25,622 bases of DNA, from the IMG/VR virus record IMGVR_UViG_3300031951_001096, positions 1-25,622 of that record; one strand, 5' to 3'. The stretch's first letter is position 1. Every line of letters begins with the position of its first letter. Under the pieces are notes generated by a model. The model was not told the origin of the DNA, did not search any database, and saw nothing but the letters and a program-made list of their open reading frames with translations. This document shows, one piece after another, positions 624 to 17,195 of the stretch. The translations under genes were made by a program, and so were the position numbers. This DNA is from a virus.

Positions 624-1064
624 ATGGATAACTTTGATTTAAGAAAATATTTAGCTGAAGGTAAATTATATGAAGCAGCTATGGCTTGTCCTTTACCTAC
701 CCAAGATTTAGAACTTAACACCAAAAATAGAGACTCAGCTATTAAAGCAGATTATATTAAATATGGTCCTTTAAATGTTGATGAACCTGGAGATTATTGG
801 GACGAATTAGCAGAACATTGGGATACAACAGTTGAAGCTGCTAAACAATCTTTATGTGCAAATTGTGCAGCATTTGATATTTCCCCAAGAATGGAAGATT
901 GTATGCCTGGACCATTACAAGATGAAGATGGAAAATTAGGATATTGTTGGATGCATAGTTTTAAGTGCCATTCAGCTCGTACTTGTAGGACATGGGCTAA
1001 AGGTGGTCCTATTACACAAGATAGTATATCTTATGATTGGCAAGAGCGTAAAGAAAGTGAGTAA
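624..1064 (+). CDS. Cysteine-rich conserved phage protein with head-targeting-like N-terminus
   Basis: 146 residues. The N-terminus MDNFDLRKYLAEGKLYEAAM has two L-x-E type sites (LAE|G, LYE|A) like those cut by T4-type prohead protease, in a short amphipathic helix. The conserved-looking core has Cys78-x2-Cys81, Cys93, Cys108, Cys115 and Cys121, with the motifs AFDISPRM, GYCWMHSFKC and CRTWAKGGPI. I recall related proteins in marine T4-like phages, always hypothetical. Six clustered cysteines suggest a bound metal or Fe-S cluster, but no named family is assigned and this is inference. It starts 2 nt after the preceding stop and overlaps the next gene by 8 nt. An N-terminal L-x-E peptide on a cysteine-rich domain would fit a protein packaged into the head. 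Confidence 0.75.
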   Translation: MDNFDLRKYLAEGKLYEAAMACPLPTQDLELNTKNRDSAIKADYIKYGPLNVDEPGDYWDELAEHWDTTVEAAKQSLCANCAAFDISPRMEDCMPGPLQDEDGKLGYCWMHSFKCHSARTCRTWAKGGPITQDSISYDWQERKESE

Positions 1065-1320
1065 ACCATACATTGACATAGAAGTTACAGACAAATATAT
1101 TATTCGTGAGTTTAACGAAAATATAGATCCAATTGAATTAAAATGGCATAGGGATTTAGAGAGTCGTACTGTTGAAATTTTAGAAGATACAGATTGGAAA
1201 CTTCAATTAGATAATAGCTTGCCTACCTCACTAAAAGAACATATATTTATACCTGCATTAGAATGGCATCGTGTAATAAAAGGAACAGGAACATTAAAGT
1301 TAAAAATACATAAATTATGA
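1057..1320 (+). CDS. Small cupin-like protein, GTG start
   Basis: About 87 residues when started at GTG 1057, which overlaps the preceding stop by 8 nt. The open frame extends upstream to ATG 1003 and ATG 1033, but those starts lie well inside the upstream gene and add residues unlike the rest. The protein has a WHRD motif, a TDWKLQLDN stretch, an IPALEWHRVIKGTG stretch and alternating beta-strand-like hydrophobics, as in a minimal single-domain cupin in which His residues would be metal ligands. The cupin reading rests on pattern only, and I recall similar short proteins in marine phages without a known function. Its 3' end overlaps the next start codon (ATGA), so the two are probably translationally coupled. 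Confidence 0.6.
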   Translation: MSKPYIDIEVTDKYIIREFNENIDPIELKWHRDLESRTVEILEDTDWKLQLDNSLPTSLKEHIFIPALEWHRVIKGTGTLKLKIHKL

Positions 1321-1598
1321 AAAAAACTGATTTAAAAAATACAATCAAAGAGGAAATTAAAAAAGTATTAATGGAGGAAACGAGTAGAACATCTATACCT
1401 CTTATCCGTGGAGCTCTTAATCAAATAGAAGAGAATGGTAAAATAGAAACTATGAATGCTATGCTTAGAAATCTTACAGATGAAGAAGCTAGACAATTCA
1501 ATTTACTTGTTCAAAAAGGAATAGGAAAAGAAATTAAAAGGATCCCAACTAATTCCCCAGCAGCTGATCCTCGTTTAACCCCAGGAACAACAGATTAA
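1317..1598 (+). CDS. Small probable internal head protein with targeting peptide
   Basis: 93 residues. It opens with the amphipathic helix MKKTDLKNTIKEEIKKVLME, followed by E and a polar region. This pattern recurs in this window (compare the proteins starting at 4939 and 10979) and resembles the capsid-targeting peptides of T4 internal proteins, which gp21 removes after L/I-x-E; here the site would be LME|E. The remainder (IRGALNQIEENGKIETMNAM...) is mostly helical with a Pro/Ala/Thr-rich tail. It overlaps the upstream gene by 4 nt and is the last gene before the terminator at 1651-1679. The role as a packaged head protein is inference; no enzymatic motif is visible. Confidence 0.65.
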   Translation: MKKTDLKNTIKEEIKKVLMEETSRTSIPLIRGALNQIEENGKIETMNAMLRNLTDEEARQFNLLVQKGIGKEIKRIPTNSPAADPRLTPGTTD

Positions 1599-1650
1599 CA
1601 TTTAGAGCAGATCTATAGCCTGTTCGTTTAAAAAATATTTTTGGAGTTGT

Positions 1651-1679
1651 AGCCCGATCTTTGGATTCGGGCTTTTTTT
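1651..1679 (+). terminator. Rho-independent terminator after the first gene cluster
   Basis: Perfect 7-bp stem AGCCCGA (1651-1657) with TCGGGCT (1667-1673), a 9-nt loop, then a run of T. It lies 53 nt after the stop of the preceding gene, and the next gene begins at 1708. Confidence 0.8.
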
Positions 1680-1707
1680 ATTATATATTTAAAACAAAAT
1701 AAGAGTT

Positions 1708-2181
1708 ATGAATATATTTTATATCAATGAAAATCCGATTATTGCTGCTCGTGAATTAACGGATGATCATATTAGAAAAATGCAAATTGAAAGTGCACAA
1801 ATGTGTAGTACTGCTCATTGGGTAAGTGGTTCAACTGCCCCTTACAAACAATCACATACTAACCACCCATCAGCAAAATGGACAAGAGAATCTATACAAC
1901 ATTATAGATGGTTAGTTCAACATGGTTTAGAAATATGTGATGAATTTGAAAAACGATATGGTAAAAGACATAAAACAAAAGATGTACTTGAATGGTTACA
2001 AAATAACGAACCTAATATCCCTGATACCGGATTTGTTAACCCTCCTCAGTGTATGCCCGATCAATATAAATTAGAAGATACTGTGGAAGCGTATAAGAAT
2101 TTTTATGTTAATGACAAGGTAAAAGTAAAAAAATTAGATTGGAAAAAATTAAACAATAAACCAAGATGGATAAACGAATAG
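1708..2181 (+). CDS. Conserved phage protein of unknown function (MNIFY family)
   Basis: 157 residues. It starts MNIFYINENPIIAARELTDD and has the motifs DDHIRKMQIESAQMCSTAH, NHPSAKWTRESIQHYRWL, HGLEICDEFEKRYGKRHKT and GFVNPPQCMPD. I recognise this as a family frequent in tailed phages, usually written with 'DKHVVKM...AQML' and 'HPC.KW.R.S..NY.WL', always annotated as hypothetical. The conserved Asp/His/Cys/Trp residues suggest an enzyme or nucleic-acid-binding fold, but I cannot name an activity. The A-rich leader has no Shine-Dalgarno sequence. The 3' end overlaps the FAD oxidoreductase start by 16 nt, so the two are likely co-transcribed and possibly coupled. Confidence 0.7.
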   Translation: MNIFYINENPIIAARELTDDHIRKMQIESAQMCSTAHWVSGSTAPYKQSHTNHPSAKWTRESIQHYRWLVQHGLEICDEFEKRYGKRHKTKDVLEWLQNNEPNIPDTGFVNPPQCMPDQYKLEDTVEAYKNFYVNDKVKVKKLDWKKLNNKPRWINE

Positions 2182-3467
2182 TAATAGTAGGAGCCGGTGT
2201 GGCAGGTGTAAATGCTGCAACTAAGTTAGTAGATAATGGATATCCTGGAGAATTAATTACATTAATTGATATGGGTAAAGATCCATATAACCGTAAACCT
2301 GAAGAAGTAATGACAGGTTTTTTAGGTGCTGGAGGTTGGTCTGATGGTAAATTAACTTACCATACAGCAATTGGAGGACAATTATCAAAATACTGTGGTG
2401 AGGATAAAGCAATGGAATTAATGGATCAAGTGATTACTAATTTCAAACGTTTTCACCCTAAACCAGAGGAAGTACAATGCTCAAATCCTGAAGCAGAACC
2501 TGAATTTATTAAACCATATTTTGGTTTACGTTTATTTCCTGTATGGCACGTAGGAACAGATTATCTATCTGAAATTGCTAAAAATTGGTATGATTATTTA
2601 GTGTCTAAAGGTGTTAATTTTATTTGGGAAAATAAAGTTCATGATATTAATGCTGAACTTAATTTAGTTCTTTACTATGATCCAATTACAGCCGTTGGTA
2701 AAGGAATTTCATATGATGAACTTATCTTTGCAGTAGGCAAATCAGGCATTGACTTTGCCCAACAATTAGCTAATAAATATAAACTCCCAGATGAACCAAA
2801 ATCAGTTCAAATTGGTGTTCGATTTGAGGCACCACAAGAACACTTCCAAAAACTAATCGATATATCATATGACTTTAAGTTATATAGAAAATTTGATGAT
2901 GAAGGTGTTTCGTTACGTTCATTTTGTACAAACAATAATGCAGCTTATGTTGCTGTAGAGGAAACATATGGAGATCATAGCTACAATGGACATGCAAAGA
3001 AAGATGAAGCATATAGAAATAATATGACTAACTTTGGTATCTTAATGGAAATTAATGGTATTGAAGATCCATTTAAGTGGTCACGTGATGTAGTAAACAA
3101 ATTACAATTTAACGGAACAGGTTTATATTATAGTCCATCTCGTACACCTTCAACCACATCAGAAGGTAATAACGTAACATCTTTCCAAATTGAATTTTTA
3201 GATGGTGTAAGAGAGATAATGGGTGGTTACTTTAAATATGTAGAGGATTTTATTGAAGATATGAAAAAAGTATTCCCTACATTAGGAGATGATTGGGGGA
3301 TTTATATACCTGAGGTAAAATATCTTTCACCTGAGGTTAAAGTAAACTATGAAAACCTTAGTTTGATTGATTATCCTAACGTATATTTTGTAGGTGATGC
3401 TTTAAGTGCACGTGGTATTACAGTATCAGGAGCCCAAGCGATTTATGTAGCTGAATCATTGCTATAA
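2166..3467 (+). CDS. FAD-dependent oxidoreductase (COG2509-like)
   Basis: 433 residues. The N-terminal Rossmann dinucleotide-binding motif is IVIVGAGVAGVNAATKL (residues ~5-21), followed by an acidic strand end LITLID. A second block reads GGWSDGKLTYHTAIGG, as in COG2509-type flavoproteins where 'SDGKL' follows the FAD-binding region. The C-terminal flavin-contact motif is VYFVGDALSARGITVSGAQA. These are the expected elements of an FAD-dependent dehydrogenase of the uncharacterised COG2509 group; the substrate is unknown. The length is close to that of the bacterial enzymes (about 430-530) and all three FAD signatures are present, so it is probably active. It overlaps the upstream gene by 16 nt and ends 3 nt before a late-promoter-like motif. 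Such an enzyme within a virion gene block is unusual and may be a metabolic gene acquired from a host. Confidence 0.8.
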   Translation: MDKRIVIVGAGVAGVNAATKLVDNGYPGELITLIDMGKDPYNRKPEEVMTGFLGAGGWSDGKLTYHTAIGGQLSKYCGEDKAMELMDQVITNFKRFHPKPEEVQCSNPEAEPEFIKPYFGLRLFPVWHVGTDYLSEIAKNWYDYLVSKGVNFIWENKVHDINAELNLVLYYDPITAVGKGISYDELIFAVGKSGIDFAQQLANKYKLPDEPKSVQIGVRFEAPQEHFQKLIDISYDFKLYRKFDDEGVSLRSFCTNNNAAYVAVEETYGDHSYNGHAKKDEAYRNNMTNFGILMEINGIEDPFKWSRDVVNKLQFNGTGLYYSPSRTPSTTSEGNNVTSFQIEFLDGVREIMGGYFKYVEDFIEDMKKVFPTLGDDWGIYIPEVKYLSPEVKVNYENLSLIDYPNVYFVGDALSARGITVSGAQAIYVAESLL

Positions 3468-3469
3468 TA

Positions 3470-3480
3470 TTTATAATAAA
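3470..3480 (+). promoter_or_regulatory. Late-promoter-like motif upstream of the DUF6884-like gene
   Basis: TTTATAATAAA, with the same core as the motifs at 4917, 9998, 17273, 17777 and 18471 and close to the T4 late promoter TATAAATA. It ends only 5 nt before the ATG at 3486. If transcription starts 6-8 nt downstream, as in T4, the message would be nearly leaderless. Confidence 0.5.
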
Positions 3481-3485
3481 ATATA

Positions 3486-4380: not shown

Positions 4381-4383
4381 TTT

Positions 4384-4938: not shown

Positions 4939-5841
4939 ATGAAAAAAACTCGTTTACTTGAAATTATACGTGAAGAAATATCTAGTGCTCTAAGAGAAGG
5001 TGAAGCTGAAGAAAAAGCAGCTAAAGCGGCTGCACTTAAAGCTACTGATTTAGAAATTAAAGCTTTGCAAAAGAAAAAAGCTGACATGATGAGAACTGGT
5101 GTAGCTGAAGCTACACTTGAAGAAGATCTTTTAAATGAAACCCCAATCTATGATGTATCTGACATGGAAGGTTTTAAATCAGCTTTAGATAAATTTAGAG
5201 ATGAGAATGTATCAAAAAGTAAAGCTCTTAATCTTTTATTAACTAAATTAGAAGATGAAGGTACAGTTGATACTAATCAATTAAGTAAAGATATGGGGGT
5301 TGATACAGCTGCATTCAATAACCAGGAAATTAGAAAATTTTTAAATCGCCCTGAAGATGAATTTTTTGAAAATCCTAAAACTGGAGAAGAATTACTTGAT
5401 TTTACACCATATTTAACTAAAGCAGATAAAAAAAGAGGTAGAGCAGCAGGCGAAAAAACAACTACTGAACCTAAAATATCAGCTAAATCAAAAAGCACAA
5501 CATCAACAGGAACTAAAGAACCTAAAAAAGCTACTTTAACTAAAGGGGATGATGGATTTGATGATGTAACTTACTCTAAACCTGAAACAACTACTAAACC
5601 AAAAGCTACAGAAACGGACAAAGCAGATGCTGCTGCTTCTAAAACTCCTAAATTAGATAAATTAGCTAATAACCAAGATGCTCTTTTAAAAGCTCAAAAA
5701 GAAACCCAAAGTAAAATGAAAGAACTAGCTGGTAAGATTAGAGGAGCTGAAGGGGCTGAAAGAGAAAATTTAATGGGCGAACTTAAAAAATTAAATAAAT
5801 TAAATGGAGAAATTCAATCTAAATTGGATAAACTATTTTAA
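4939..5841 (+). CDS. Probable internal head protein, Ala/Lys/Glu-rich
   Basis: 300 residues. The N-terminal targeting-like helix MKKTRLLEIIREEISSALRE is followed by G (predicted cleavage LRE|G). The body is low-complexity and strongly charged. Residues ~25-55 and ~230-300 are predicted coiled coil (EEKAAKAAALKATD; QDALLKAQKETQSK). The middle, about 165-225, is a Thr/Lys/Pro-rich linker likely to be disordered. No catalytic motif is visible. A cleavable targeting peptide and a soluble charged body fit a T4-like internal or core protein co-packaged with DNA. It is transcribed from its own late promoter and followed by a terminator at 5880-5914. Assignment is by pattern, not homology. Confidence 0.65.
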   Translation: MKKTRLLEIIREEISSALREGEAEEKAAKAAALKATDLEIKALQKKKADMMRTGVAEATLEEDLLNETPIYDVSDMEGFKSALDKFRDENVSKSKALNLLLTKLEDEGTVDTNQLSKDMGVDTAAFNNQEIRKFLNRPEDEFFENPKTGEELLDFTPYLTKADKKRGRAAGEKTTTEPKISAKSKSTTSTGTKEPKKATLTKGDDGFDDVTYSKPETTTKPKATETDKADAAASKTPKLDKLANNQDALLKAQKETQSKMKELAGKIRGAEGAERENLMGELKKLNKLNGEIQSKLDKLF

Positions 5842-5921: not shown

Positions 5922-6488
5922 ATGACTATAAAAACTAAAATAATACTCGGACTATCAGCTATATTAACAATATGTTTAATAGCATTATATGGTTTATTTA
6001 AATTGTATCAACATGAAAAAGAAGAAAGAAAACGATACAATAACAACATGATTGCTCTTGTAGAAGATAAAAGTAAACAACAATCACTCACGTTAAATGA
6101 ACTTAAAAAGTTATACCCAAAATATGATTCTTTAGCTAAAGTGCTTAATATCAAAACTAAAAATATTACTGATATAGTAGAAACTAGATACCGTTTTAAA
6201 GATTCTATTTTAACATCTACTATATTAAAAAAAGATAGTATATCTGAAAAAGCATATTTTGCATTAACTGAAAAATGTTATAAATTTTCGGGGTTTATTA
6301 AAAAAGATTCCATATCATTCACCAATAAAGAATTTAAAGATAATTTAACAACATTTTTATACAAAGATTGGGAGAAAAAATATTTATGGGGACTGTTAAA
6401 ATTTAACCCATTTTATACTTCCAAAGTATATAGTGAATGCATGCAAGATACAATTGCAGTCATTAACAATATAAAAATTAAAAAATAA
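5922..6488 (+). CDS. Membrane-anchored protein, spanin-like, resembling Bacteroidetes phage proteins
   Basis: About 188 residues from ATG 5922 (MTIKTKIILG). That start was chosen because the ATG at 5880 lies inside the terminator hairpin. Residues ~7-27 form one strongly hydrophobic segment (IILGLSAILTICLIALYG), followed by a charged stretch (YQHEKEERKRYNNN) and a long predicted helix. The C-terminal part has the pattern FSGFIKKDSISFTN, DNLTTFLYK, YLWGLLKF and SKVYSE. This arrangement of membrane anchor, coiled region and 'F.G.I..DS...W........VYSE' tail resembles proteins of Bacteroidetes phages (DUF6549-like) often lying near lysis genes, so an inner-membrane spanin is possible. No lysin or holin gene is seen nearby. 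It overlaps the terminase start by 1 nt (TAATG). Confidence 0.65.
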   Translation: MTIKTKIILGLSAILTICLIALYGLFKLYQHEKEERKRYNNNMIALVEDKSKQQSLTLNELKKLYPKYDSLAKVLNIKTKNITDIVETRYRFKDSILTSTILKKDSISEKAYFALTEKCYKFSGFIKKDSISFTNKEFKDNLTTFLYKDWEKKYLWGLLKFNPFYTSKVYSECMQDTIAVINNIKIKK

Positions 6489-8080
6489 TGGGCCAAGACC
6501 TAAAACAGGCAATAAGAGAAGAATACATAAAATGCGCTTCATCCCCAGCATATTTTATGAAAAGATACTGCTACATCCAACATCCAAAACGTGGCCGCAT
6601 TCAATTTAACTTATACCCATTCCAAGAACGCGTTTTAACTTTATTTCAAGAAAATCCATATTCAATTGTTTTAAAATCTAGACAGCTAGGTATTTCAACA
6701 CTATCGGCGGGTTATTCTTTATGGTTGATGATGTTTCACCAAGATAAAAATGTACTTTGTATTGCAACAAAACAAGAAACTGCTAAAAACATGGTTACAA
6801 AGGTTAAGTTTATGTATAATAACTTACCATCTTGGCTTAAATTTCCAAACAAACCAGAAGAAGAAAATAAATTAACACTTCGATTACCAAACGGTTCCCA
6901 AATTAAAGCAACTTCAGCCTCTAGTGATGCAGGTCGTTCAGAAGCCGTTTCTTTATTGATAATAGATGAGGCTGCTTTTATTAACAATATAGGTGAGATA
7001 TGGGCCTCAGCTCAACAAACATTAGCAACTGGTGGTGGTTGTATTGCATTATCTACACCTTATGGTACAGGTAACTGGTTCCATAAAACATGGGTTGCTG
7101 CTGAATTAAGTGAAAATAGCTTTTTACCTATCCGTTTACCCTGGAGTGTGCATCCTGAAAGAGACCAATCATGGAGAGACCAGCAAGATGCTGATTTAGG
7201 TCCTAAAATGGCTGCTCAAGAATGTGACTGTGATTTTTCCACCTCAGGTGATACTGTATTTTTGGCAGATGAAATAGAATTTTACGAAAAAACATTTATT
7301 ACAGACCCAATCGAAAAACGTGGAATTGATCAAAATTTATGGATCTGGGAACCAGCTGATTATTCAAAAAACTATTTAATTACAGCGGATGTTGCTCGAG
7401 GTGATGGAGCGGATTACTCTACATTTCATATTTTAGATATTGAAACATACAAGCAAGTAGGAGAATATAAAGGACAAATCAGTACAAAAGATTTTGGACA
7501 TTTACTGGTTGCAATTGCAACAGAATATAATAATGCTTTACTTGCTCCTGAAAATTCTAGTATAGCTTGGTCAACTATTCAAACTATCCTTGATAGAGGG
7601 TACCATAATTTGTATTATTCACCCAAAAGCAATGCTTTAACAGTTGATAGTTATTTTGACCCATACATGGATCATAGTAAAATGACACCTGGATTTACAA
7701 TGTCCTCAGCTACTAGACCTATTTCAATAGGTAAATTTCAAGAAGCTGTTCGAGATAGAGGTGTTATTATCCAATCAGCTAGACTGATAGAGGAAATGAA
7801 GGTATTTATATGGAGAAATGGCAGACCAGAAGCACAACCTGGATACAATGATGATTTAATTATGGCATTTGCAATCATGTCTTTTTTACGAGAAACAGCA
7901 TTTAAACTAAGACAAAATGGTATGGAAATGACCAAAAGTATGCTTAACAGTATCCATACTAATAATACAACATATTCGGGAGGTTATTCAAATGCCCAAC
8001 CAAATAAATACAATAACAACCCATTTAAAATAGATAACCCTTATTCAAACGGTCAAGAAGATATTTCATGGCTAATCTAA
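6488..8080 (+). CDS. Terminase large subunit (gp17-like)
   Basis: 530 residues; T4 gp17 has 610. It is the motor that packages DNA into the prohead through the portal and cuts concatemers. The N-terminal ATPase has an adenine-motif-like region (QFNLYPFQERVL), a Walker A at residues ~63-71 (KSRQLGIST, with Ile where T4 gp17 has Lys) and a Walker B LLIIDEAAFI (Asp160-Glu161). The C-terminal RNase-H-fold nuclease has ITADVARGDGADYSTFHILD (Asp301) and GYNDDLIMAFAI (Asp455/Asp456), supplying the expected acidic triad. The last ~60 residues are Asn/Tyr-rich and probably flexible. It begins by a 1-nt overlap with the membrane protein gene and is followed 10 nt later by the portal gene, as expected for a packaging module. 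No small terminase is visible in the window. Confidence 0.95.
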   Translation: MGQDLKQAIREEYIKCASSPAYFMKRYCYIQHPKRGRIQFNLYPFQERVLTLFQENPYSIVLKSRQLGISTLSAGYSLWLMMFHQDKNVLCIATKQETAKNMVTKVKFMYNNLPSWLKFPNKPEEENKLTLRLPNGSQIKATSASSDAGRSEAVSLLIIDEAAFINNIGEIWASAQQTLATGGGCIALSTPYGTGNWFHKTWVAAELSENSFLPIRLPWSVHPERDQSWRDQQDADLGPKMAAQECDCDFSTSGDTVFLADEIEFYEKTFITDPIEKRGIDQNLWIWEPADYSKNYLITADVARGDGADYSTFHILDIETYKQVGEYKGQISTKDFGHLLVAIATEYNNALLAPENSSIAWSTIQTILDRGYHNLYYSPKSNALTVDSYFDPYMDHSKMTPGFTMSSATRPISIGKFQEAVRDRGVIIQSARLIEEMKVFIWRNGRPEAQPGYNDDLIMAFAIMSFLRETAFKLRQNGMEMTKSMLNSIHTNNTTYSGGYSNAQPNKYNNNPFKIDNPYSNGQEDISWLI

Positions 8081-8090: not shown

Positions 8091-9983
8091 ATGGCAGATA
8101 CTAGATTATTCTCAAGATTAAAACGATTGTTTTCAACAGACGTAATCATTCGAAATGAAGGAGGTGAGTTGAAAGTAATGGATATTAATAAAATCCAACA
8201 ATCAGGTGATTATGAAACAAATGCCTTAGTTGATAGATTTAACCGAATATACACTAACTCACATACCTCAATTTATGGTTACCAAAGCAGCTTTAACTAT
8301 CAAACTCTACGCCCCACTCTTTACTCAGAATATGATGCTATGGACACAGATGCTATCGTTGCCTCTGCGTTAGATATTTTAGCTGATGAATGTACTTTAC
8401 GTAATGATATGGGTGAAGTACTCCAAATTAGAAGTTCAGACGAGGATGTTCAACGTGCTTTATATAATTTGTTCTATGATGTATTGAACGTTGAATTTAA
8501 CTTATGGCCTTGGATTCGTAATATGTTGAAATACGGTGATTTCTTTTTAAAACTAGAAATTTCCGAAAAATTTGGTGTATATAATGTAATTCCTTACAAT
8601 GCATTTCATATTGAAAGACAAGACGGATATGATAAAGATCATCCAAATGATATAAGATTCAGATTTGATCCAGATGGAATTTCATCCCCATCAAATTATG
8701 GATACTATAACGTACCAAACTCTGCAAATCAATCAAACGATATATATTTTGACAATTACGAAATGGCTCATTTCCGTTTATTAACGGACACTAACTTTTT
8801 ACCTTATGGTAGATCATATCTTGAACCAGGCCGTAAGTTATTTAAGCAATATACGATGATGGAAGATGCGATGTTAATTCACCGTATCGTTAGAGCACCT
8901 GAAAAACGTATATTCTCAATTAATGTTGGTAATATTGCTCCTGCTGAAGTAGAAAACTTTATGCAGAAAACAATATCCAAAATGAAACGTACTCCATATA
9001 TTGATCAACAAACAGGTGATTATAACTTAAAGTACAATATGCAAAACTTGCTTGAGGACTTTTACATCCCAGTTAGAGGAAACGATCAAGCAACCAAAAT
9101 TGATACTTTAGGTGGTTTACAATACGATGGTATTACAGATGTAGAATATTTAAGAGACAAATTATTTGCTGCCCTTAAAGTTCCAAAAGCGTTTATGGGG
9201 TATGAAAAAGATTTAACTGGTAAGGCAACATTAGCTGCTGAAGACATTCGTTTTGCTCGTACAATTGAACGCATTCAACGTATTGTTGTATCTGAATTAA
9301 CTAAAATTGCTCTAGTTCATTTATATACTCAAGGATACACTGATGAGAATTTAACTAATTTTGAACTTTCATTAACTACACCTTCAATCATATATGACCA
9401 AGAAAGAGTAGCATTGATGAAAGAAAAAACAGAATTAGCTATCTCAATGATAGAAAATAAATTGATGCCTTCTGATTGGATATATGAAAATTTATTCCAT
9501 TTAAGTGAAGATCAATACGATGAATATAGAGACTTGATTCTTCAAGATGCTAAACGTAAATTCCGTGTAACTCAAATTGAAAACGAAGGTAATGATCCAC
9601 TTGAAACAGGTAAATCTTACGGTACACCACATGATTTAGCTTCTTTATATGGAAGAGGAAGATATGAAGGCGAAGTACCTGAAGGATATGATGAAAAAGA
9701 ACCATTAGGAAGACCAAAAGAAAAAGTAACAGATCGAAACACTCAAGATAGTGTTTTTGGAAAAGATAGAATAGGAGCTATAGGAGCTAAAGTAGATGGA
9801 GATGAATCAAACTCAACTAAACCAGAATATAAAGGTGGATCTCCATTAGCACTTGAAACTAAAATTAAACGAAACAAAAATAGTAAAATGTTTAATAACA
9901 TTAAAAATCAAAAGAAACAAATTATTTTTGAATCGGATATTAGAGGAAATTCATTGTTAGATGAATCACAAATACGAGAGTAA
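8091..9983 (+). CDS. Portal protein (gp20-like)
   Basis: 630 residues; T4 gp20 has 524. It forms the dodecameric vertex through which DNA enters and to which the neck attaches. Recognisable segments include LRPTLYSEYDAMDTDAIVAS, ALDILADECTLRND, IRNMLKYGDFFLKLEI, PYNAFHIERQDG, FRLLTDTNFLPYGRSYLEPG, LIHRIVRAPEKRIFSINVGN and LKVPKAFMGYEKDLTGKATL, all typical of T4-type portals. The extra length lies at the C-terminus (about residues 500-630), which is charged and Gly/Lys/Glu-rich and ends with ESDIRGNSLLDESQIRE. It is preceded by terminase and followed by a late-promoter motif and a small endonuclease remnant. Product assignment is firm; the function of the tail is not known. Confidence 0.93.
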   Translation: MADTRLFSRLKRLFSTDVIIRNEGGELKVMDINKIQQSGDYETNALVDRFNRIYTNSHTSIYGYQSSFNYQTLRPTLYSEYDAMDTDAIVASALDILADECTLRNDMGEVLQIRSSDEDVQRALYNLFYDVLNVEFNLWPWIRNMLKYGDFFLKLEISEKFGVYNVIPYNAFHIERQDGYDKDHPNDIRFRFDPDGISSPSNYGYYNVPNSANQSNDIYFDNYEMAHFRLLTDTNFLPYGRSYLEPGRKLFKQYTMMEDAMLIHRIVRAPEKRIFSINVGNIAPAEVENFMQKTISKMKRTPYIDQQTGDYNLKYNMQNLLEDFYIPVRGNDQATKIDTLGGLQYDGITDVEYLRDKLFAALKVPKAFMGYEKDLTGKATLAAEDIRFARTIERIQRIVVSELTKIALVHLYTQGYTDENLTNFELSLTTPSIIYDQERVALMKEKTELAISMIENKLMPSDWIYENLFHLSEDQYDEYRDLILQDAKRKFRVTQIENEGNDPLETGKSYGTPHDLASLYGRGRYEGEVPEGYDEKEPLGRPKEKVTDRNTQDSVFGKDRIGAIGAKVDGDESNSTKPEYKGGSPLALETKIKRNKNSKMFNNIKNQKKQIIFESDIRGNSLLDESQIRE

Positions 9984-10128: not shown

Positions 10129-10986
10129 ATGTTAATTCGTCATTCAAAATATAAAAATACGGGTATACTTTTTGAACTTTTAGTTCGTCAAATTACCACT
10201 GATACACTAGACGGTAAAGATTCCCCTGCAAAAGATATACTTAAAAAATATTTCGTTAAAACGGAATTGGGTCGTGAATATAGGTTATATGAAACGTTAC
10301 TTAAAAAAACATCCCTTACAGAAACTAAAGCAAATATTGTAGTTTCTACTTTAACTGAATCATCTAAAAGTTTAAATAGAGGGGTAATTAAAAGACAAAA
10401 ATATAATTTGATTAGTGAAATTCAAAAACATTATGATTTAAATGAATTTTTTAATCATAAACTTCCTAATTACAAAGTATATGCTGCTTTTTATACATTG
10501 TTAGAAATTACCCATTCTCAAACCTCTATTAATCCTGAACAAACTATCACAAATAAAGTTACTATTTTAGAGCATTTAACAGCTGCTCAAATTAAAGAAA
10601 GTGCTGTTCGTGATGAAGTTTTAACAGAACTAGACAACTCAGATAAAGATGTTAAGTTTCTTGCATATAAAATATTAATGGAGAAATTTAATAACAAATA
10701 CGATGATTTAAGCCTAAACCAAAAAATCATCCTTAAAGAATACATCAATTCAGTAGATAATACATCTCGCTTAAAAGAATTTTACACAGATAAAATAAAC
10801 GAGATTAAAGTTGAATTAAAAAAATTAAACAACAAAACAAACAACCCAGTTACAAAAATTAAAATTAACGAGATTATCTCTGTTATCAATCCACCAGCAA
10901 AAAATGCTAAAATAACAGATAATGATTTAGTTGATTTACTACAGTATTGTGATTTAATCAATGAATTAGAAACTGTAAATGGATAA
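10129..10986 (+). CDS. Conserved T4-like phage protein between portal and protease
   Basis: 285 residues. It starts MLIRHSKYKNTGILFELLVR; the 'KY.NTG.LFELLVRQ.T.DTL' opening is one I recall from marine T4-like phages, where it precedes the prohead genes and is annotated as hypothetical. The protein is mostly helical and Lys/Asn-rich (SLTETKANIVVSTLTE, LIEEI-type helices, EIKVELKKLNNKT) with no enzymatic motif. It lies in the genome position that T4 gives to core genes 67 and 68, so a prohead core or assembly role is plausible by synteny only. It starts 3 nt after the endonuclease remnant and overlaps the following gene by 8 nt. Confidence 0.75.
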   Translation: MLIRHSKYKNTGILFELLVRQITTDTLDGKDSPAKDILKKYFVKTELGREYRLYETLLKKTSLTETKANIVVSTLTESSKSLNRGVIKRQKYNLISEIQKHYDLNEFFNHKLPNYKVYAAFYTLLEITHSQTSINPEQTITNKVTILEHLTAAQIKESAVRDEVLTELDNSDKDVKFLAYKILMEKFNNKYDDLSLNQKIILKEYINSVDNTSRLKEFYTDKINEIKVELKKLNNKTNNPVTKIKINEIISVINPPAKNAKITDNDLVDLLQYCDLINELETVNG

Positions 10987-11434
10987 GTTAAAAGAAATAA
11001 TCCGTAAAAAACTCAAAGAAATGAGTGCTACCAATGTTGGTGGTGCTACTGCTTCCCCTGGTGAAGGTATAGGAATGGCTACTAAACCCGCGTTTAATAA
11101 AAATAAAAACGCTAAAGGTGCTAAAAATATATACTATTACAAGTTAGGATTTAAAAATGTCCCAAACATTAAACCAAAATCTTACGATAAGAAAAAATTA
11201 TGGGAAGAAGATAAAGAACCATCCGCAGCAAAAAAATTTCAAAACGAAAGAATTGACGAATTTACTCAAATTGAAAATCTTTTAAAAGACTTATCCCCTC
11301 TTGTATCAAATGCTAAAAATGATACTTTAGAATACTACGCAGCTAACCCAGGTTCATTTGATATTTATAAACCGTCTTCAATGGTTTTAGCATATATTCA
11401 AAAAGCAGTAGATTTATTAAAACAAAAACAATGA
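10979..11434 (+). CDS. Small probable prohead core protein with targeting helix
   Basis: 151 residues. The N-terminus MDKLKEIIRKKLKEMSATNV is the same type of amphipathic helix seen in the proteins starting at 1317 and 4939, with a predicted prohead protease site LKE|M. It is followed by a Gly/Ala/Ser-rich stretch (GGATASPGEGIGMATKPAFN) and a segment NIYYYKLGFKNV, a combination I recall from T4-like phage hypotheticals. The C-terminal half is helical. It overlaps the genes on both sides (8 nt upstream, 4 nt downstream) and occupies the gp67/gp68 position. A cleaved core protein is the best reading, by context and motif rather than by direct homology. Confidence 0.65.
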   Translation: MDKLKEIIRKKLKEMSATNVGGATASPGEGIGMATKPAFNKNKNAKGAKNIYYYKLGFKNVPNIKPKSYDKKKLWEEDKEPSAAKKFQNERIDEFTQIENLLKDLSPLVSNAKNDTLEYYAANPGSFDIYKPSSMVLAYIQKAVDLLKQKQ

Positions 11435-13251
11435 AAAAAACATTACAAGATCAGTATTTATTAATCAAAGAAGGTAAAGGACATAAAGGTGTTTTTCTTA
11501 CTGAAGCTAAACGTAATTTTCCTCATATAGTACCAAATTCTGCTACATTTGAGGAAGCAGCTGCATCTCTTAAAACTAAAAACATAATTTCAGAAAATGT
11601 GATTGGTTTGACTGCTGTTGCTGGATATGAGCCTAAGAAAAAAGAGTCATACGAAACTGCGTTTGAGGCATTTTTAGTTGAAGCTAAAAAGAAAAAAGAA
11701 AATGAAGACGAGAAAGTAAAAGCAGAAGAGAAAAAAGTATCTAAACCTGTTGAAAAAGATCTTGAAAAACAATACGATAAAATAGACGATAAAACCCCAG
11801 ACAATTTGATCTTTGATCAAATTATGATGGGTTATTATGCTGAAATGAAAGATCCTAAAAATGCTGATAAAACAATGCAACAATTGAAAGATATTGTGTT
11901 GAAAAACTTATCAAAAGATCCAATTCACTATACAAAAGATGGTCAATTTGGTGTAAAAGATTTAGGATATGTAACTGAACATCCTGGTTTAGGCACCCCA
12001 AAAGAAGCTACTGGAAAATACAAATCATCTGGATACGGTAATTTAAATGAAAATAAAGAACTTAACGTTGGTGATACTGTAAAATATAAAGGAATTAAAG
12101 TTACAGTAGAAAAAAAAGACGAAGTAGGTAATTTAGTATTGAAATCTGAAAGTGGTAAAACAATTAGAGCAAATAAAGCACAATTTAAAGAATATGGTTC
12201 TTTAGAAGAAGAAAAACTTCGTAAAGCTATCCGTGAAATGATTGATGCTGAGTTAGAAGAAGTTAAAGGTGGTGGCAATTATGGAATGATGACCATCAAC
12301 ACTGCTAATATTGAAAAAGGAGAACAAAAAATCCCAACATACTATATTTTAACATCCGAAGTTAGAAAAGAATTTAACCTTTTAAATCCAGGCCTTAATG
12401 CTCCTTCATATGATGAATCATTAAAAATCCCTCATATCCGAATTACTCCTGACAATACTATCTTTATATCAGATTTACTTTATGTTACTTTAGGAGGAAT
12501 GGAAAAAGGTAGAGGCACTAGAGAAAAACAAATTGAAGATAACAAAAACCGCCTTAAAGTTATCACTAATGAAATTTCAGATAGATATTGGCCAATGGTT
12601 AGAGCATTACTTAAAAAATATGCTGAATCAAAGACAACTATATACCCTGTACTAGGAAAAGATGTTTTATACCATCAAATTAGATTTAAAGAAAATGGGT
12701 ATAAAGTAGAAAAATTAGAAGATTGGATTGGGAAAAAAATAAAAGAAATTAATGCTAAACTAGCACAAGCATCTTCTGGGGAAGTACGAAGAGGTCGTCC
12801 TATAAATGTTGAAGCTTTAATGAGATTTAAGAAGCAATTAGAAGATATGGAACCCAATGCTAAAGGTGGTGTAGCAATAATTCCTCCTCCGTTTCCGATG
12901 GGAGAATCTTTAATGGAAAGTGTAGAAAAAGATCTTGCCGCAATTAACAAAGAAGCAGAACATGAAACTTTACAATCTAAATTAGATAAAATCCAAGAAT
13001 TAATTGATAAAAAACAATCTCAACTTAGTAAACTTGATGAGGATGAAGATATGAAAGCTTTAACTGATACTAAGAAAGTTAAAGAAATTCAAAAAGATAT
13101 CAAAGCTTTAGAAAAAGCAAAATCTAAAGTTGAAAAAATGATGTCTAAATTTAAAGGTAAAATTAAAAAAACAGAAGTAATTGATGAAACAGACGACATG
13201 TTAGAAGACAACATAATGGGTGAAGAAATGTCATATGACGAAAATTACTAA
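11431..13251 (+). CDS. Large multidomain virion/prohead protein with internal targeting motif
   Basis: 606 residues. The N-terminus has LIKE|G and FLTE|A sites within ~25 residues; FLTE|A is exactly the T4 gp23 cleavage sequence. Residues ~85-125 are a Lys/Glu-rich coiled region. Residues ~210-255 (LNVGDTVKYKGIKVTVEKKD...) resemble a small KOW/SH3-like beta barrel. Residues ~263-276 carry LRKAIREMIDAELEE, a second copy of the targeting-type helix but internal. The section ~280-480 is mixed alpha/beta and of unknown fold, and the end (~510-585) is a long coiled coil (KLDKIQELIDKKQSQLSKLD). It may be a fusion of two head proteins or a polyprotein cut during maturation. Start ATG overlaps the previous stop by 4 nt, and the stop is 2 nt before the protease gene. 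Confidence 0.7.
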   Translation: MKKTLQDQYLLIKEGKGHKGVFLTEAKRNFPHIVPNSATFEEAAASLKTKNIISENVIGLTAVAGYEPKKKESYETAFEAFLVEAKKKKENEDEKVKAEEKKVSKPVEKDLEKQYDKIDDKTPDNLIFDQIMMGYYAEMKDPKNADKTMQQLKDIVLKNLSKDPIHYTKDGQFGVKDLGYVTEHPGLGTPKEATGKYKSSGYGNLNENKELNVGDTVKYKGIKVTVEKKDEVGNLVLKSESGKTIRANKAQFKEYGSLEEEKLRKAIREMIDAELEEVKGGGNYGMMTINTANIEKGEQKIPTYYILTSEVRKEFNLLNPGLNAPSYDESLKIPHIRITPDNTIFISDLLYVTLGGMEKGRGTREKQIEDNKNRLKVITNEISDRYWPMVRALLKKYAESKTTIYPVLGKDVLYHQIRFKENGYKVEKLEDWIGKKIKEINAKLAQASSGEVRRGRPINVEALMRFKKQLEDMEPNAKGGVAIIPPPFPMGESLMESVEKDLAAINKEAEHETLQSKLDKIQELIDKKQSQLSKLDEDEDMKALTDTKKVKEIQKDIKALEKAKSKVEKMMSKFKGKIKKTEVIDETDDMLEDNIMGEEMSYDENY

Positions 13252-13253: not shown

Positions 13254-13886
13254 ATGAACAAACAACTTTTAATAGAAACCAGACATTTTGTTCCCCAACC
13301 GGTTCGCCTTTTAGAAGGGCTAAAAGGTAATGGAAACATTTTTGTTGAAGGTATTTTAGCTACCGTTGAGGTAAAAAATGGTAACGGAAGATACTACAAA
13401 CGTGAGTTGTGGGAACGTGAAATTAATAATTTCCAACAAAAAATAAACCAAAAAACAACCGAAACATGTGGTGAATTAGATCATCCTGATTCTCAAGTTA
13501 TAAACCTAAAAAACGCTTCACATTCTATCCGTAAAATATGGTGGGATGGTGATGAAGTATGGGGCCAAGTAGAAATATTTTCAGACCTAGGACCAAAAGG
13601 AACTGTATCTGGCCGTATAGCAGGTGCTTTAGTTAACAATGGTTTAACAATTGGTATTTCATCTCGCGGAATGGGCTCATTAAAACAAATGGGTGAGGTA
13701 ATGGAAGTACAAGATGATTTTGAATTACTTACTTTTGATTTAGTTTCAAACCCTTCTAATCCTGACTCTTGGATGCGTAATGGACAATTAAACGAATCTA
13801 GAACAACATATCTAGATCCTTACGCACGCACAAACTCAATTATAACTGAAATTTTATGTGCTAAAGGCACATGCCCGATATTTTAA
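13254..13886 (+). CDS. Prohead core protease (gp21-like)
   Basis: 210 residues, close to T4 gp21 (212). It is the serine protease that cuts scaffold, capsid and internal proteins after L/I-x-E during prohead maturation. The catalytic His is in GELDHP (His77) and the nucleophile Ser in TIGISSRGMGS (Ser136 or Ser137). The acidic/structural segment LTFDLVSNPSNPDSW matches the family. Upstream conserved parts are FVEGILATVEVKNGNGRYY and IRKIWWDGDEVWGQVEI. The N-terminus contains LLIE|T and RLLE|G, which suggests self-cleavage. The gene is 2 nt behind the large head protein gene and is followed by a terminator, so it ends the prohead operon. Confidence 0.93.
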   Translation: MNKQLLIETRHFVPQPVRLLEGLKGNGNIFVEGILATVEVKNGNGRYYKRELWEREINNFQQKINQKTTETCGELDHPDSQVINLKNASHSIRKIWWDGDEVWGQVEIFSDLGPKGTVSGRIAGALVNNGLTIGISSRGMGSLKQMGEVMEVQDDFELLTFDLVSNPSNPDSWMRNGQLNESRTTYLDPYARTNSIITEILCAKGTCPIF

Positions 13887-13933: not shown

Positions 13934-13946
13934 GTCTTTTGCGACT

Positions 13947-13970
13947 TTGACAAAATTTGCATATACATAT
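13947..13970 (+). promoter_or_regulatory. Possible sigma70-type promoter before the scaffold gene
   Basis: TTGACA at about 13947-13952 is followed at a short 15-nt spacing by TATAAC. The -35 box is perfect, but the spacing is short and the region AT-rich, so this may be chance. No clear TATAAATA motif lies directly before the scaffold gene; the nearest look-alike is TTTTAAAATAAAC at 14029-14041. Confidence 0.25.
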
Positions 13971-13978
13971 AACAGAAT

Positions 13979-14006
13979 ATACCACCACCCTCAATCCATG
14001 TGGTAT
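13979..14006 (+). repeat. Inverted repeat in the scaffold 5' region
   Basis: ATACCAC (13979-13985) pairs perfectly with GTGGTAT (14000-14006) across a 14-nt loop, with no T run behind it. It lies about 70 nt upstream of the scaffold start and may fold as an mRNA hairpin or be a binding site. Confidence 0.45.
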
Positions 14007-14025
14007 CAATTAAATGAATTCTATT

Positions 14026-14043
14026 ACGTTTTAAAATAAACGT
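14026..14043 (+). repeat. Palindrome ACGTTT-N6-AAACGT before the scaffold gene
   Basis: ACGTTT (14026-14031) and AAACGT (14038-14043) form a 6-bp palindrome around TAAAAT, 31 nt before the scaffold ATG. It overlaps TTTTAAAATAAAC, which is similar to the late-promoter motif TTTATAATAAAC. It could be a variant late promoter, an operator, or chance in AT-rich DNA. Confidence 0.35.
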
Positions 14044-14074
14044 ACTTTCCCAACAAAATTAAATTTAGGAAAAA

Positions 14075-15490
14075 ATGGCAACTAACAGAGAAATGCTTAA
14101 AGAAGCAATCGCTGAAGCTAAAGCTGTAAAAGAAATGGCTATAGCAAATGCAAAAGCAGCTCTAGAAGAGTCCTTTACACCTCAACTTAAATCTATGTTA
14201 TCTTTAAAACTTCAAGAAATGGAAAAAGAAGATCTTGAAGAAGAAGGATATGGTAAAATGGACGCAGAACCTGAAACAGGATTCAGCTCAATGGGCGAAA
14301 AAGCTCTTGATGAAGAAGAAATGGAAGAAGGAGAAGGCGAAAACATGTACGAAGTTGATTTGGAAGAACTTTTAGCAGAGCTAGAAATGGAAGAAGGTGA
14401 AGTTGAAGAAAACATCAACGAAGCCGAAGAAGGTGAAGAAGAGGAAGGTGAAGAGGAAGAAGAAGGTGAAGAAGAAAACTCAGAAATGGAAGACCTTTCA
14501 GACGACGAATTGAAAGAAATGATTGAAGACGTAATCGCACAAATGATTAAAGACGGTGAGTTACAAGCAGGATCTGAATTCGAAGGTGAAGAAGAAGGTG
14601 AAGAAATGGAAATGGGTGATGAGGAAGAAGAAGTAGATTTAGCAGAACTTTTAAGAGAAATTGAAGAAATGGAAGAAGAAAATGAATACTCCACTAATGA
14701 AATATTTGATCCATCTGCACCAATAGTATTAGCAGCAGGATTGGGTACTTTAGGAGGTTTAATTGCATTAGGTACAGCTTATTTCTATAGTAAAGGAGCT
14801 GCAAAAGAAGAAGAGTTAAAAAGAAGAATAACTAATTTAATTCTTTCTAAGCAAAAAGGAACATTGGATAAAGAATGGGAGACTATGAAAAAAGATATGG
14901 AAAGTAACCCCCAACTAAAACAAAAAGTCCTAGATAACTTAAATACTATCCAGAAATTAGGTCTTAGCCTTGATGAAGCAGAAACAACAAGTAATCCTAT
15001 GTTAGCTGCTTTAAAAAATGTAGCTGCAGACCAAGATATTTCTATAGGTAATATCGTTAAAGCAAGTGAAAAAGTTGAAGATGAAGTAGAAAAAGTAAAA
15101 AAATCAGTTGAAGAAACAGAAGAAACAATGGATGAAATGAAAGCTGAATTAGATGAAGCTCTTTCTACAATCGAAACTTTAAAAGCTGAACTTAACGAAA
15201 TCAACCTTTTAAACGCTAAACTTCTTTATTCAAACAAAATCTTCAAAGCTAAAAATTTGAACGAAAACCAAAAAGTGAAGGTATTAAGTTCGTTTGACAA
15301 AGCTAAAAACGTAGGTGAAGTAAAAATGGTATATGAAACTTTAAACGAGGGAATTAAAGTTAAAAAAGAAACCATTAAAGAAAACCTAGGTAGAGCTTCT
15401 AAAGCAACTACTACCCCAACTGCAAAACAACCAATCGTAGAGTCAAACGATGTATTTAAAAGAATGCAAAAATTGGCTGGAATTATTTAA
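14075..15490 (+). CDS. Prohead scaffold/core protein (gp22-like) with hydrophobic insertion
   Basis: 471 residues; T4 gp22 has 269. It forms the core around which gp23 assembles and is degraded by the gp21-type protease. The N-terminal helix has LKE|A and IAE|A sites. Residues ~45-205 are extremely acidic (long Glu runs with Gly/Met). The C-terminal region (~357-428) carries ETLKAELNEINLLNAKLLYS, NKIFKAKNL and VKMVYETLNEG, which I recognise as the conserved gp22-type scaffold segment. Between them, residues ~208-330 form an insertion that begins with a glycine-rich hydrophobic stretch IVLAAGLGTLGGLIALGTAY (residues 217-236), long enough to cross a membrane, followed by helical sequence. Upstream, AGGA lies 5 nt from the A-rich pre-ATG sequence, one of few Shine-Dalgarno-like sites here. 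Capsid gene follows 25 nt later. Confidence 0.88.
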   Translation: MATNREMLKEAIAEAKAVKEMAIANAKAALEESFTPQLKSMLSLKLQEMEKEDLEEEGYGKMDAEPETGFSSMGEKALDEEEMEEGEGENMYEVDLEELLAELEMEEGEVEENINEAEEGEEEEGEEEEEGEEENSEMEDLSDDELKEMIEDVIAQMIKDGELQAGSEFEGEEEGEEMEMGDEEEEVDLAELLREIEEMEEENEYSTNEIFDPSAPIVLAAGLGTLGGLIALGTAYFYSKGAAKEEELKRRITNLILSKQKGTLDKEWETMKKDMESNPQLKQKVLDNLNTIQKLGLSLDEAETTSNPMLAALKNVAADQDISIGNIVKASEKVEDEVEKVKKSVEETEETMDEMKAELDEALSTIETLKAELNEINLLNAKLLYSNKIFKAKNLNENQKVKVLSSFDKAKNVGEVKMVYETLNEGIKVKKETIKENLGRASKATTTPTAKQPIVESNDVFKRMQKLAGII

Positions 15491-15515
15491 TTTAAAAACT
15501 AAAAAAAAACAAAAA

Positions 15516-17195
15516 ATGTCAAGTATTAATTCATTACTAGAAAGCTCTGCAAACGGATGGAGAAACATGCAGAGTGATGCTGCTAGAATGGCATCAAAAT
15601 GGTCTAAAACAGGCCTATTAGAAGGACTTGGAAGCGAAGTTGAAAAAAACAACATGGCTTTGATCCTTGAAAACCAAGCAAAACAACTTGTTGTTGAGCA
15701 ATCTTCTACTCAAGTAGGAGGCTCTAACTTTGTTGTAGGACAAGGTGAGCAATGGGCTGGTGTAGCTCTTCCATTGGTACGTAAAGTATTTGGTTCTTTA
15801 TCAACTAAAGAATTCATGTCAGTACAACCAATGAATCTACCTTCAGGTCTTGTATTCTTCTTGGATTTCCAATATGGTGCTTCAGCTAAAGCTGGATCTC
15901 CAACAACATTTGGTCCAGGTTCAGATGTTTATGCTGCTTCATCTTCAATGTACGGTAACACAAACCCAGGAGCTAATTTAGATCCATCTAGCGGTTTATA
16001 CGGTGCTGGTAGATTTGCTTATTCAATCAACCAATTCTCTGCTTCTGTAGGTGTAACTGTAGCAACAGCATCTTGGGCTCAATTAGATTACGCAGCTGAA
16101 TTAGCTTCTACAACAGGTAGCTATACAGCTGTAACTGTAACTGGACAATTAACTCGTCCTGATTATAAAGGTGTTAGAGCATTTGTATTGGCTTCAGGTT
16201 CAACTTTAACTTCAGCTACTGCAGCTAAATTGTTACCACAATACACTTCTACAAACGGTACTAACGCAATCACATTTATTTATAGTGGTTCTGTAGGTAC
16301 ATCTGATATCCCAGCTGCAGGTGTTTCTTCATCTGTCTTCTACAACATGCAACCTGCTGATAATTTTAGAGGTGATTTTGAAGATAACAGCGGTGCTGGT
16401 TATCCAAATGCTGAATCAACTTCTGCTGATGCATTAGCTATTCCACAAATCAACATTCAAATGAAATCTGAAGCTATTGTTGCTAAAACACGTAAGTTAA
16501 AAGCACAATGGACACCAGAATTTGCTCAAGATTTGAATGCTTACCAATCATTAGATGCTGAAGCTGAATTGACTTCAATCATGTCTGAGTATATTGCTCT
16601 AGAAATCGATCTAGAAAACTTAGATATGTTGATCCAAGATGCTTCTGCTGCAGATGAATACTGGTCAGCTAAAAACAACAATTACTTGAATGCAGGTAAA
16701 ACAGCTTGGGCTGCTGATTTAGACTTCTACAACACACAAGGTCAGTGGTTCCAAACTTTAGGTACTAAAATGCAGAAAGTTTCTAACAAAATCCACCAAA
16801 AGACTTTACGTGGTGGAGCTAACTTCTTAGTATGTTCTCCTTCAGTTGCAACTGTCCTTGAATCAATCCCAGGATTTGCTTCAACTTCTGATGGTGATGT
16901 AACTAAAGCAAGCTATGCATTTGGTATCCAAAAATCAGGTAACTTAAACAACCGTTATACAGTATACAAAAACCCATACATGACTGAAAACGTTATTTTG
17001 ATGGGTTATAGAGGATCTCAATTCCTTGAAACTGGTGCTGTATTTGCTCCATATGTGCCTCTAATCATGACTCCATTAGTGTACGATCCAGACACTTTCA
17101 CACCAAGAAAAGGTCTATTGACTCGTTACGCTAAGAAAATGATCCGTCCTGAATTCTACGGTCGTATCTTCGTTAATGATTTGAACACTCTATAA
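15516..17195 (+). CDS. Major capsid protein (gp23-like)
   Basis: 559 residues from ATG 15516, chosen over an in-frame ATG at 15450 because that one lies within the scaffold gene and this one follows a typical A-rich leader. T4 gp23 has 521. Matching segments are VQPMNLPSGLVFFLDFQYGA, EAIVAKTRKLKAQWTPEFAQ, DLNAYQSLDAEAELTSIMSE, IHQKTLRGGANFLVCSP and TRYAKKMIRPEFYGRIFVND. Aligning QLVVE-QSSTQVGG with T4 FLTE-AEIGG predicts prohead-protease cleavage after Glu61 (T4: Glu65). Residues ~115-255 include a long Ser/Thr/Gly-rich insertion before the 'MQPADNFRGDFE' region, probably a surface domain. Codons such as aac, ttc and atc look more frequent than in neighbours, fitting high expression. A strong terminator follows. 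Confidence 0.95.
   Translation: MSSINSLLESSANGWRNMQSDAARMASKWSKTGLLEGLGSEVEKNNMALILENQAKQLVVEQSSTQVGGSNFVVGQGEQWAGVALPLVRKVFGSLSTKEFMSVQPMNLPSGLVFFLDFQYGASAKAGSPTTFGPGSDVYAASSSMYGNTNPGANLDPSSGLYGAGRFAYSINQFSASVGVTVATASWAQLDYAAELASTTGSYTAVTVTGQLTRPDYKGVRAFVLASGSTLTSATAAKLLPQYTSTNGTNAITFIYSGSVGTSDIPAAGVSSSVFYNMQPADNFRGDFEDNSGAGYPNAESTSADALAIPQINIQMKSEAIVAKTRKLKAQWTPEFAQDLNAYQSLDAEAELTSIMSEYIALEIDLENLDMLIQDASAADEYWSAKNNNYLNAGKTAWAADLDFYNTQGQWFQTLGTKMQKVSNKIHQKTLRGGANFLVCSPSVATVLESIPGFASTSDGDVTKASYAFGIQKSGNLNNRYTVYKNPYMTENVILMGYRGSQFLETGAVFAPYVPLIMTPLVYDPDTFTPRKGLLTRYAKKMIRPEFYGRIFVNDLNTL

Follow-up and report, generated by a model that had tools for sequence, protein, structure and literature searches.

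Head genes and tagged proteins of the window

The DNA analysed here is a viral fragment of 25,622 nucleotides (25.6 kb; IMG/VR record IMGVR_UViG_3300031951_001096), referred to below as the window. Family and profile searches of its genes identified it as the part of a T4-type phage genome that holds the head genes. Our subject is a set of short N-terminal peptides, called tags A, B and C, that end in the motif [LIV]-x-E. Genes are named by their first position in the window, and ↓ marks a predicted cut. Judged from the comparisons given below, the N-termini of the proteins 624, 1317 and 4939, and in shortened form that of 10979, are very probably removable head-targeting tags resembling the capsid targeting sequence (CTS) of phage T4.

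All features located in this paragraph and the next are on the plus strand. Three genes are predicted to encode head cargo. The first (624..1064) encodes a 146-amino acid (aa) protein with tag C (residues 1-17, 624-674; MDNFDLRKYLAEGKLYE↓A) and a Cys-rich mature part. The second (1317..1598) and third (4939..5841) encode proteins of 93 and 300 aa with tag A, at residues 1-20 in both (1317-1376, ..KKVLME↓E; 4939-4998, ..SSALRE↓G). A conserved head-cluster protein of 151 aa (10979..11434) carries at its start a shortened version resembling tag A (residues 1-14, 10979-11020; LKE↓M).

The head machinery comprises the terminase large subunit (TerL, 6488..8080) and the portal protein (8091..9983), both identified by family search, followed by two uncharacterised genes (10129, 10979) and a core-like protein of 606 aa with many conserved [LIV]xE sites (11431..13251). 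An internal copy of the tag A helix lies at residues 263-277 of the core-like protein (LRKAIREMIDAELEE, 12217..12261). The next gene (13254..13886) encodes the prohead protease, which matches PF03420 with 93.5 bits (cut-off 27, E-value 1.6e-26) and thus belongs to Peptidase S77; it has kept sites of its own at LLIE8↓T, RLLE21↓G and QLNE181↓S. A scaffold-like protein, also with many conserved [LIV]xE sites (14075..15490), ends in the peptide RMQKLAGII (15461..15487), the element that is reused as tag B. The major capsid protein (MCP, phrog_138; 15516..17195) has a candidate maturation site, LVVE↓Q, that ends at ~15698.

A longer record (G019, 106 kb) contains a protease identical to that of the window (L003) and shares the tagged genes of the window. 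Among cultured phages, the best MCP match is to Flavobacterium phage immuto (vB_FspM_immuto, NC_055915), with 58% identity. MCP, protease and portal are clustered in 7/7 long records and likewise in immuto, and several tagged genes lie directly upstream of TerL in both the window and immuto.

From the L/I-x-E motif to whole tags

The initial annotation had proposed that seven proteins (624, 1317, 4939, 10979, 11431, 13254 and 14075) share one N-terminal head-targeting and cleavage code, recognised by L/I-x-E tripeptides. Every one of these tripeptides was found where it had been reported. The first 30 residues of the 28 window genes contain 26 [LI]xE motifs, compared with ~9.4 expected from per-protein shuffles, and the seven proteins account for 15/26. 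The motif alone is nevertheless a poor marker, as it also occurs in TerL, a kinase-like protein (4384), denV, the MCP and some tail-side genes. Because non-cargo genes have it too, the bare count was rejected as stand-alone evidence in spite of its N-terminal enrichment. Judging by sequence, what is specific is the whole tag together with a floating [LIV]-x-E that prefers a small residue at P1', the position directly after the E.

The idea of an N-terminal targeting and cleavage code on accessory proteins is backed by several of the comparative tests below, but there are at least three tags and not one code; 624 has tag C while 1317 and 4939 have tag A. Nor do all seven proteins look like cargo, since 13254 and 14075 are the protease and the scaffold and therefore machinery, and 11431 looks like a core protein. 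Exact copies of the helix said to be shared, L-x-x-x-I-[RK]-x-x-[IL]-x-x-x-L-x-E, are present in 1317, 4939 and 11431 (263-277), whereas 10979 has an N-terminally shortened form (LKEIIRKKLKE); the full pattern is present in the 10979 orthologues of L087, L122, L127 and L128.

Conservation in alignments of relatives differed greatly between the proposed cut sites. The LKE of 10979 is kept in 55/55, IKE14↓G of 11431 in 61/76, LKE of the scaffold in 93/99, and LIE and LLE of the protease in 47/49 and 48/49, respectively. The LRE of 4939 is kept in 10/10 (alignment of 11, remoter relatives such as L026 and L031 being left out), and among the relatives of 4939 the tag is well kept while the remainder is divergent. 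No homologue of 1317 was found among the related loci gathered for comparison. Two sites are poorly kept: FLTE↓A of 11431 is retained in 51/76, 13 relatives having D instead, and IAE↓A of 14075 is retained in 17/99, the other 82 having D. According to PMC9026906, a P1 aspartate in T4 inhibits processing yet permits targeting. With D so frequent at P1, neither site is likely to be cut generally.

Tag A

The consensus of tag A is MKKSELxxIIKEEIxxVLxE↓. The initial annotation had called for a motif search over N-termini, and an unguided enumeration of spaced patterns (1635 non-redundant of 1897 open reading frames, ORFs) placed the tag A helix at the top of the N-terminal motifs; the pattern I..E....L.E was found in 34 N-termini and in 0 internal windows. 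A matrix of residues 1-16 was applied to seven long related records, where 44/1801 ORFs scored ≥20 bits. 44/44 of these strong matches are at the start codon, and shuffles gave 0.

A degenerate DNA pattern for MKK[ST..]xLxxxI[KR]EEI matches at least 119 stretches of viral contigs, from which 80 loci were kept. The same pattern gave 2 matches in 257 Gb of GTDB genome contigs, both from a single metagenome bin. A stricter pattern was found in 21/29 long records, mostly picked for tagged or related loci; its reversed form was found in none of the 29. It was also found in 2/34 random viral contigs ≥40 kb. In immuto the strict pattern is absent and looser variants are present. A tblastn search of phage records with the 21-residue tag A gave no match, but the search is insensitive because it missed the variants carried by immuto. 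10979 and 11431 searched against phage records gave no match either.

Among 99 tag A proteins, non-redundant by downstream sequence, the information content is high through residue 14 and reaches 1.74, 1.97 and 1.79 bits at residues 17, 18 and 20. It then drops to 0.34 bits at residue 21 and is ≤0.30 through residue 34. For most of the set the search pattern fixes the residues up to 14 and a hydrophobic residue at 17, leaving 18 and 20 free. The tag B and C patterns likewise fix MQKLAG and F[DN]LKK..ENKL, so that conservation at the pattern-fixed residues is partly by construction. The tests of the E and of P1' described below use residues outside the search patterns. Tag A proteins <50 aa and cargo redundant by 4-mers were dropped, as were tag B matches with <25 aa after the motif or >20 residues before it, and tag C matches followed by <45 aa or lacking an ATG ≤12 codons away (5/96). 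For ORF calling a simple script took the longest ORF, and the contig-scan counts are lower bounds.

Tag C and the 624 family

Tag C has the consensus MxNF[DN]LKK[YF]LxENKL, after which come a short linker and LxE↓. It is carried by 624 of the window, by four immuto genes, and by five genes of G022 that lie beside the tag A genes of that record. Of the tag C pattern matches listed from viral contigs, 91/96 have an ATG ≤12 codons upstream. The 624 family (80 loci kept of more) mostly has tag C, although L118 starts with MINLLDILSE instead.

L15 and E17 of the LYE↓A site are invariant in 37 aligned relatives, an alignment that excludes the 3/80 loci reading YKAL at this place; four loci were not parsed. 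The mature part has seven Cys that are invariant in the same 37 relatives (C22, C78, C81, C93, C108, C115 and C121). Seven phage records with a 624-like protein label it a high potential iron-sulfur protein; a redox protein would be an odd head cargo. A sequence search of the PDB with 624 gave a single match (E-value 0.18), and a structure prediction for the family, with a mean predicted local distance difference test (pLDDT) score of 45.5, was set aside.

Two further observations concern the tags. Six members of the 624 family have, in place of tag C, a possible fourth tag, M(GIEL/SRVG)KKKK..ERLNKR[LM]L[SG]E; the loci include L827:1438-1893, L829:1438-1887 and L833:1438-1887. An island of small genes in G022 (95179-102500; L347, L348) has tags A, B and C close together.

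The predicted terminal cleavage site

All three tags end in the same kind of site. [LIV]xE lies within residues 15-30 in 93/99 tag A proteins (shuffle 35.8, standard deviation (sd) 4.4; 14% elsewhere in the proteins), follows tag B in 43/43 (shuffle 19.3, sd 3.1; elsewhere 14%) and follows tag C in 69/72 (shuffle 28.7, sd 4.0; elsewhere 18%). With the site restricted to L or I, tag A has it in 88/99. The predicted tag ends in immuto are MKKQILSEQFRRMQKLAGIITE for gp083, ..NSKILKE for gp076, ..AQLLKE for gp077, ..SKLINE for gp003 and ..SRLLE for gp092; in the immuto MCP the predicted cut follows ..QIVSE.

The residue at P1' was compared in 352 representatives. A small residue (GASNTQ) follows the E in 62%, 80% and 55% for tags A, B and C, respectively, and in 33–35% at other LxE sites of the same proteins. 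K or R is found in 1.8%, 0% and 0%, compared with 9–14% at the other sites. The tag ends resemble the MCP site, LVVE↓[QAST] in 80/80, and the protease sites RLLE↓G/S/A/N (48/49) and QLNE↓[GSN] (49/49).

The tags might instead dock on the core and stay uncut, with [LIV]-x-E merely the end of an amphipathic helix. Tag A is helix-like with its E in register at residue 20, and two relatives of 4939 (L026 and L031) keep the tag without the E. Most 10979 orthologues have M or I at P1', hydrophobic residues that are unfavourable for cleavage. Against uncut tags, [LIV]xE floats with the spacing, since tag A proteins with non-canonical spacing still have it in 25/31 (shuffle 9.8), and the same site ends three unlike tags. 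The P1' preference is also like that of the conserved MCP and protease sites. We consider uncut tags unlikely, although the best placed of the alternatives.

Tags A and B resemble scaffold and core segments

Tag B (..RMQKLAGIITE↓) matches the C-terminus of the phage's own scaffold (RMQKLAGII). The form M..LAG[ILVM] was counted 12 times among the 1801 ORFs (0.3 on average in shuffles), as 3 scaffold C-termini, 1 internal copy (G025:19155, residue 141) and 8 copies near N-termini, examples of which are MNKEFLKMQKLAGIITE↓S and MKKQILSEQFRRMQKLAGIINE↓G. The tag B DNA pattern was found at a minimum of 88 places in viral contigs, 45 of them N-terminal, 28 C-terminal and 15 other. Distant scaffolds end in the same form, SRWQKLAGIIK in immuto, ERMKKLAGIVK in Mel-JY01 and ERIKRLAGL in RM378, whereas the scaffold C-terminal LAG form is not present in HTVC008M or T4. 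Peptide searches of phage records with tags B and C gave matches confined to four immuto records. One protein (G018:108719) carries tags A and B in tandem. As a separate observation, a second head-cluster protein (G015:166078-166623; L377) has a scaffold-like C-terminus, NKFKRLAGIK; because it ends like the scaffold, the C-terminal peptide is common to neighbouring head proteins.

Tag A has its counterpart in the core-like protein, where residues 263-277 of 11431 (LRKAIREMIDAELEE) are in register with tag A residues 6-20. The E277 site of this internal copy is kept in 45/57, and the immuto orthologue, gp071, carries MKKAELKEGFKKLIKKVLSEE. The scaffold and protease of immuto are gp067 and gp070.

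Another view is that the tags are general protein-protein binding or oligomerisation modules that act in the tail or at some other place in the infected cell, and not in the head. Many tagged genes in the long records lie outside the head cluster, and cargo functions are uncharacterised. The association with the protease is also a poor discriminator. S77 was found in 13/18 tag A records, many of them fragments, and in 17/21 tag B or C records (4/10 of the tag B records being C-terminal matches); it was over the cut-off in 9/34 random contigs ≥40 kb, but in 5/6 random contigs ≥148 kb, so that co-occurrence is weak support only. Against a site of action outside the head stand the match of tag B to the end of the scaffold and of tag A to a helix within the core-like protein, the position of 8/10 tag A genes of G006 between MCP and portal, and the likeness of the tag ends to prohead protease sites. 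Modules acting elsewhere are therefore improbable, a shade more so than uncut tags.

Cargo diversity and tag exchange

In 649 scanned loci, 596 distinct tagged proteins were found (342 with tag A, 157 with C and 97 with B). These fall in 328 cargo clusters, 264 singletons and 64 with several members. Tag classes are mixed in 21/64 multi-member clusters at E<1e-4 and in 17 at E<1e-8. In 6/17 of the latter, homology starts ≤11 residues from the predicted cut on both sides. Examples are B361/C239, with homology from residues 2 and 2 (E-value 1e-77), A433/C443, from residues 2 and 4 (1e-72), and A125/B420, from residues 1 and 4 (5e-38). A family scan of tag A and B proteins (121 of the 141 listed, or equivalents) matched 7 Pfam and 6 PHROG families with one member each. 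A search of NCBIfam gave two weak matches, far under the cut-off.

Codon identity within the tags is 0.661, with 0.583 expected and 0.526 and 0.534 in control pairs. Synonymous codons in the tags are thus nearly randomised, and it is therefore the peptide and not the DNA that is conserved. That the shared starts are a DNA-level feature without peptide selection, either recent copies that recombination has distributed or a regulatory element lying within the start, is hardly credible, for although neighbouring tags can be near-identical in DNA (e.g. G022 98334 and 98942) and codon identity slightly exceeds expectation, the peptide is kept while its codons are near-randomised by genome usage, which largely refutes the idea, and upstream sequences in the examples do not align as copies by eye.

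A probable head address system

The comparisons, all made on sequence, show that the tags are modules confined to N-termini, that homologous cargo can carry one or another of them, that they are conserved as protein, and that they are similar to scaffold and core segments. Because the tags end in predicted cut sites, are interchangeable, and in two cases resemble parts of the inner core, they probably mark cargo for loading into the head. The best interpretation is that they are T4-like capsid targeting sequences particular to this lineage, of which at least three versions can replace one another.

Loading could proceed in four steps. First, the newly made protein would be docked by its tag onto the core of the growing head, with tag B acting as a copy of the scaffold C-terminal RMQKLAGI and tag A as a copy of the 11431 helix. 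The likeness of tag B to the scaffold end points to a simple way of docking, and one that can be tested. The capsid shell would then close round the core plus cargo. Given the conserved site patterns, the S77 protease would next cut after the E of the [LIV]-x-E that ends each tag, and also in the MCP, the scaffold, the core and its own propeptide. The tag peptide would finally leave, and the mature cargo would stay inside and presumably enter the next host with the DNA.

Several observations weigh against this reading. By eye, tags A, B and C have no evident similarity to the MKT[YF]xEFIxE of the T4 internal proteins (IPs), and as a sequence family they lie outside the T4 IP-type CTS. No [LIV]xE was found in residues 15-30 in 6/99 tag A proteins, or in 21/191 of a larger set. 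Within the 624 family, the 3/80 loci that read YKAL lose E17, and L829 has a K directly after it. The P1' of 1317 is E, which is unfavourable, like the M or I of 10979 already described, and the loss of the E in L026 and L031 points the same way. Homology in 11/17 cross-tag clusters starts deep within one or both proteins, which means that only part of the cargo is shared, and some of these far-start matches may be low complexity. No counterpart of tag C turned up in the core. The strict DNA patterns for tag A and for MQKLAG were found in none of Mel-JY01, RM378, HTVC008M and LR756508. Added to the weak discrimination by S77 co-occurrence, S77 was not seen in the fragments at hand of the two tagged random contigs.

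On balance we think it probable that a largely uncultured T4-type lineage has a modular head address system, in which at least three protease-cut tags, two of them copies of scaffold or core segments, load hundreds of unrelated proteins for delivery to the host. If the tags work in this way, the packaged and injected proteins of uncultured phages would be predictable from sequence alone, and candidates for anti-defence and host-takeover roles could be read directly from metagenomes. The hypothesis can be tested in culture, because immuto has all three tags.

Other features of the window

The upstream motif ATATTTAT precedes 17/68 tagged, 13/71 structural and 173/1881 other ORFs in eight genomes. 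It is possibly a late promoter before tagged and structural genes; the enrichment is weak and fits late expression. TATTTATA occurs in AT-rich stretches before several genes (3468, 4915, 9996, 18469 and 24619).

A pyrimidine dimer glycosylase gene (denV-like, PF03013; 1708-2181) adjoins the tagged genes 624 and 1317, and T4 denV likewise adjoins ipII and ipIII. The protein at 7-621 matches DUF5872 barely over the cut-off (27.6 vs 27.5 bits). An 860-aa repetitive protein (21997-24579) with LSTEVSARE-like repeats, seen by eye, is probably a fibre; its family matches are weak.

Comparison with known systems

No account of these tags was found in literature titles and abstract openings, a search in which subscription papers were mostly outside coverage. 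In T4, a few internal proteins are known to carry the CTS. IPII and IPIII start MKTYQEFIAE↓A and IPI starts MKTFKEF...STITE↓A, placing I-x-E at residue 10 or 19. A capsid-targeting function of the internal-protein N-terminus is described in PMC9026906, and according to PMC3012670 the T-even internal proteins are highly diverse, with the CTS alone conserved. The tags described here are similar in being short N-terminal peptides on otherwise different small proteins, with an MK start and a floating I-x-E. They share with the CTS a common N-terminal peptide (~17–30 residues here, ~10–20 in T4), an L/I-x-E end of the prohead protease type, and occurrence in a phage with a T4-type S77 head. Tags A and B, which match core and scaffold segments, may also have an affinity for the head core; no such match was found for tag C. 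They differ from the T4 CTS in that there are at least three tags on 328 cargo clusters in the scanned loci, that homologous cargo switches tags, and that two of the tags match scaffold or core pieces.

The likeness extends to the gp21 system. The window protease starts MNKQLLIE↓T and gp21 starts MNEPQLLIE↓T, and [LIV]xE sites are conserved in the MCP, in the scaffold and in the core. A difference is that P3 may be V here (LVVE in the MCP). In the giant phages SPN3US and phiKZ, head proteins have N-terminal propeptides that are cut by the prohead protease and are thought to target the head (PMC5694885). According to the same source, several giant-phage propeptides are >100 residues long and gp45 alone is T4-like with 20 residues. 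The tags described here, at ~17–30 residues, are much shorter than those long propeptides.

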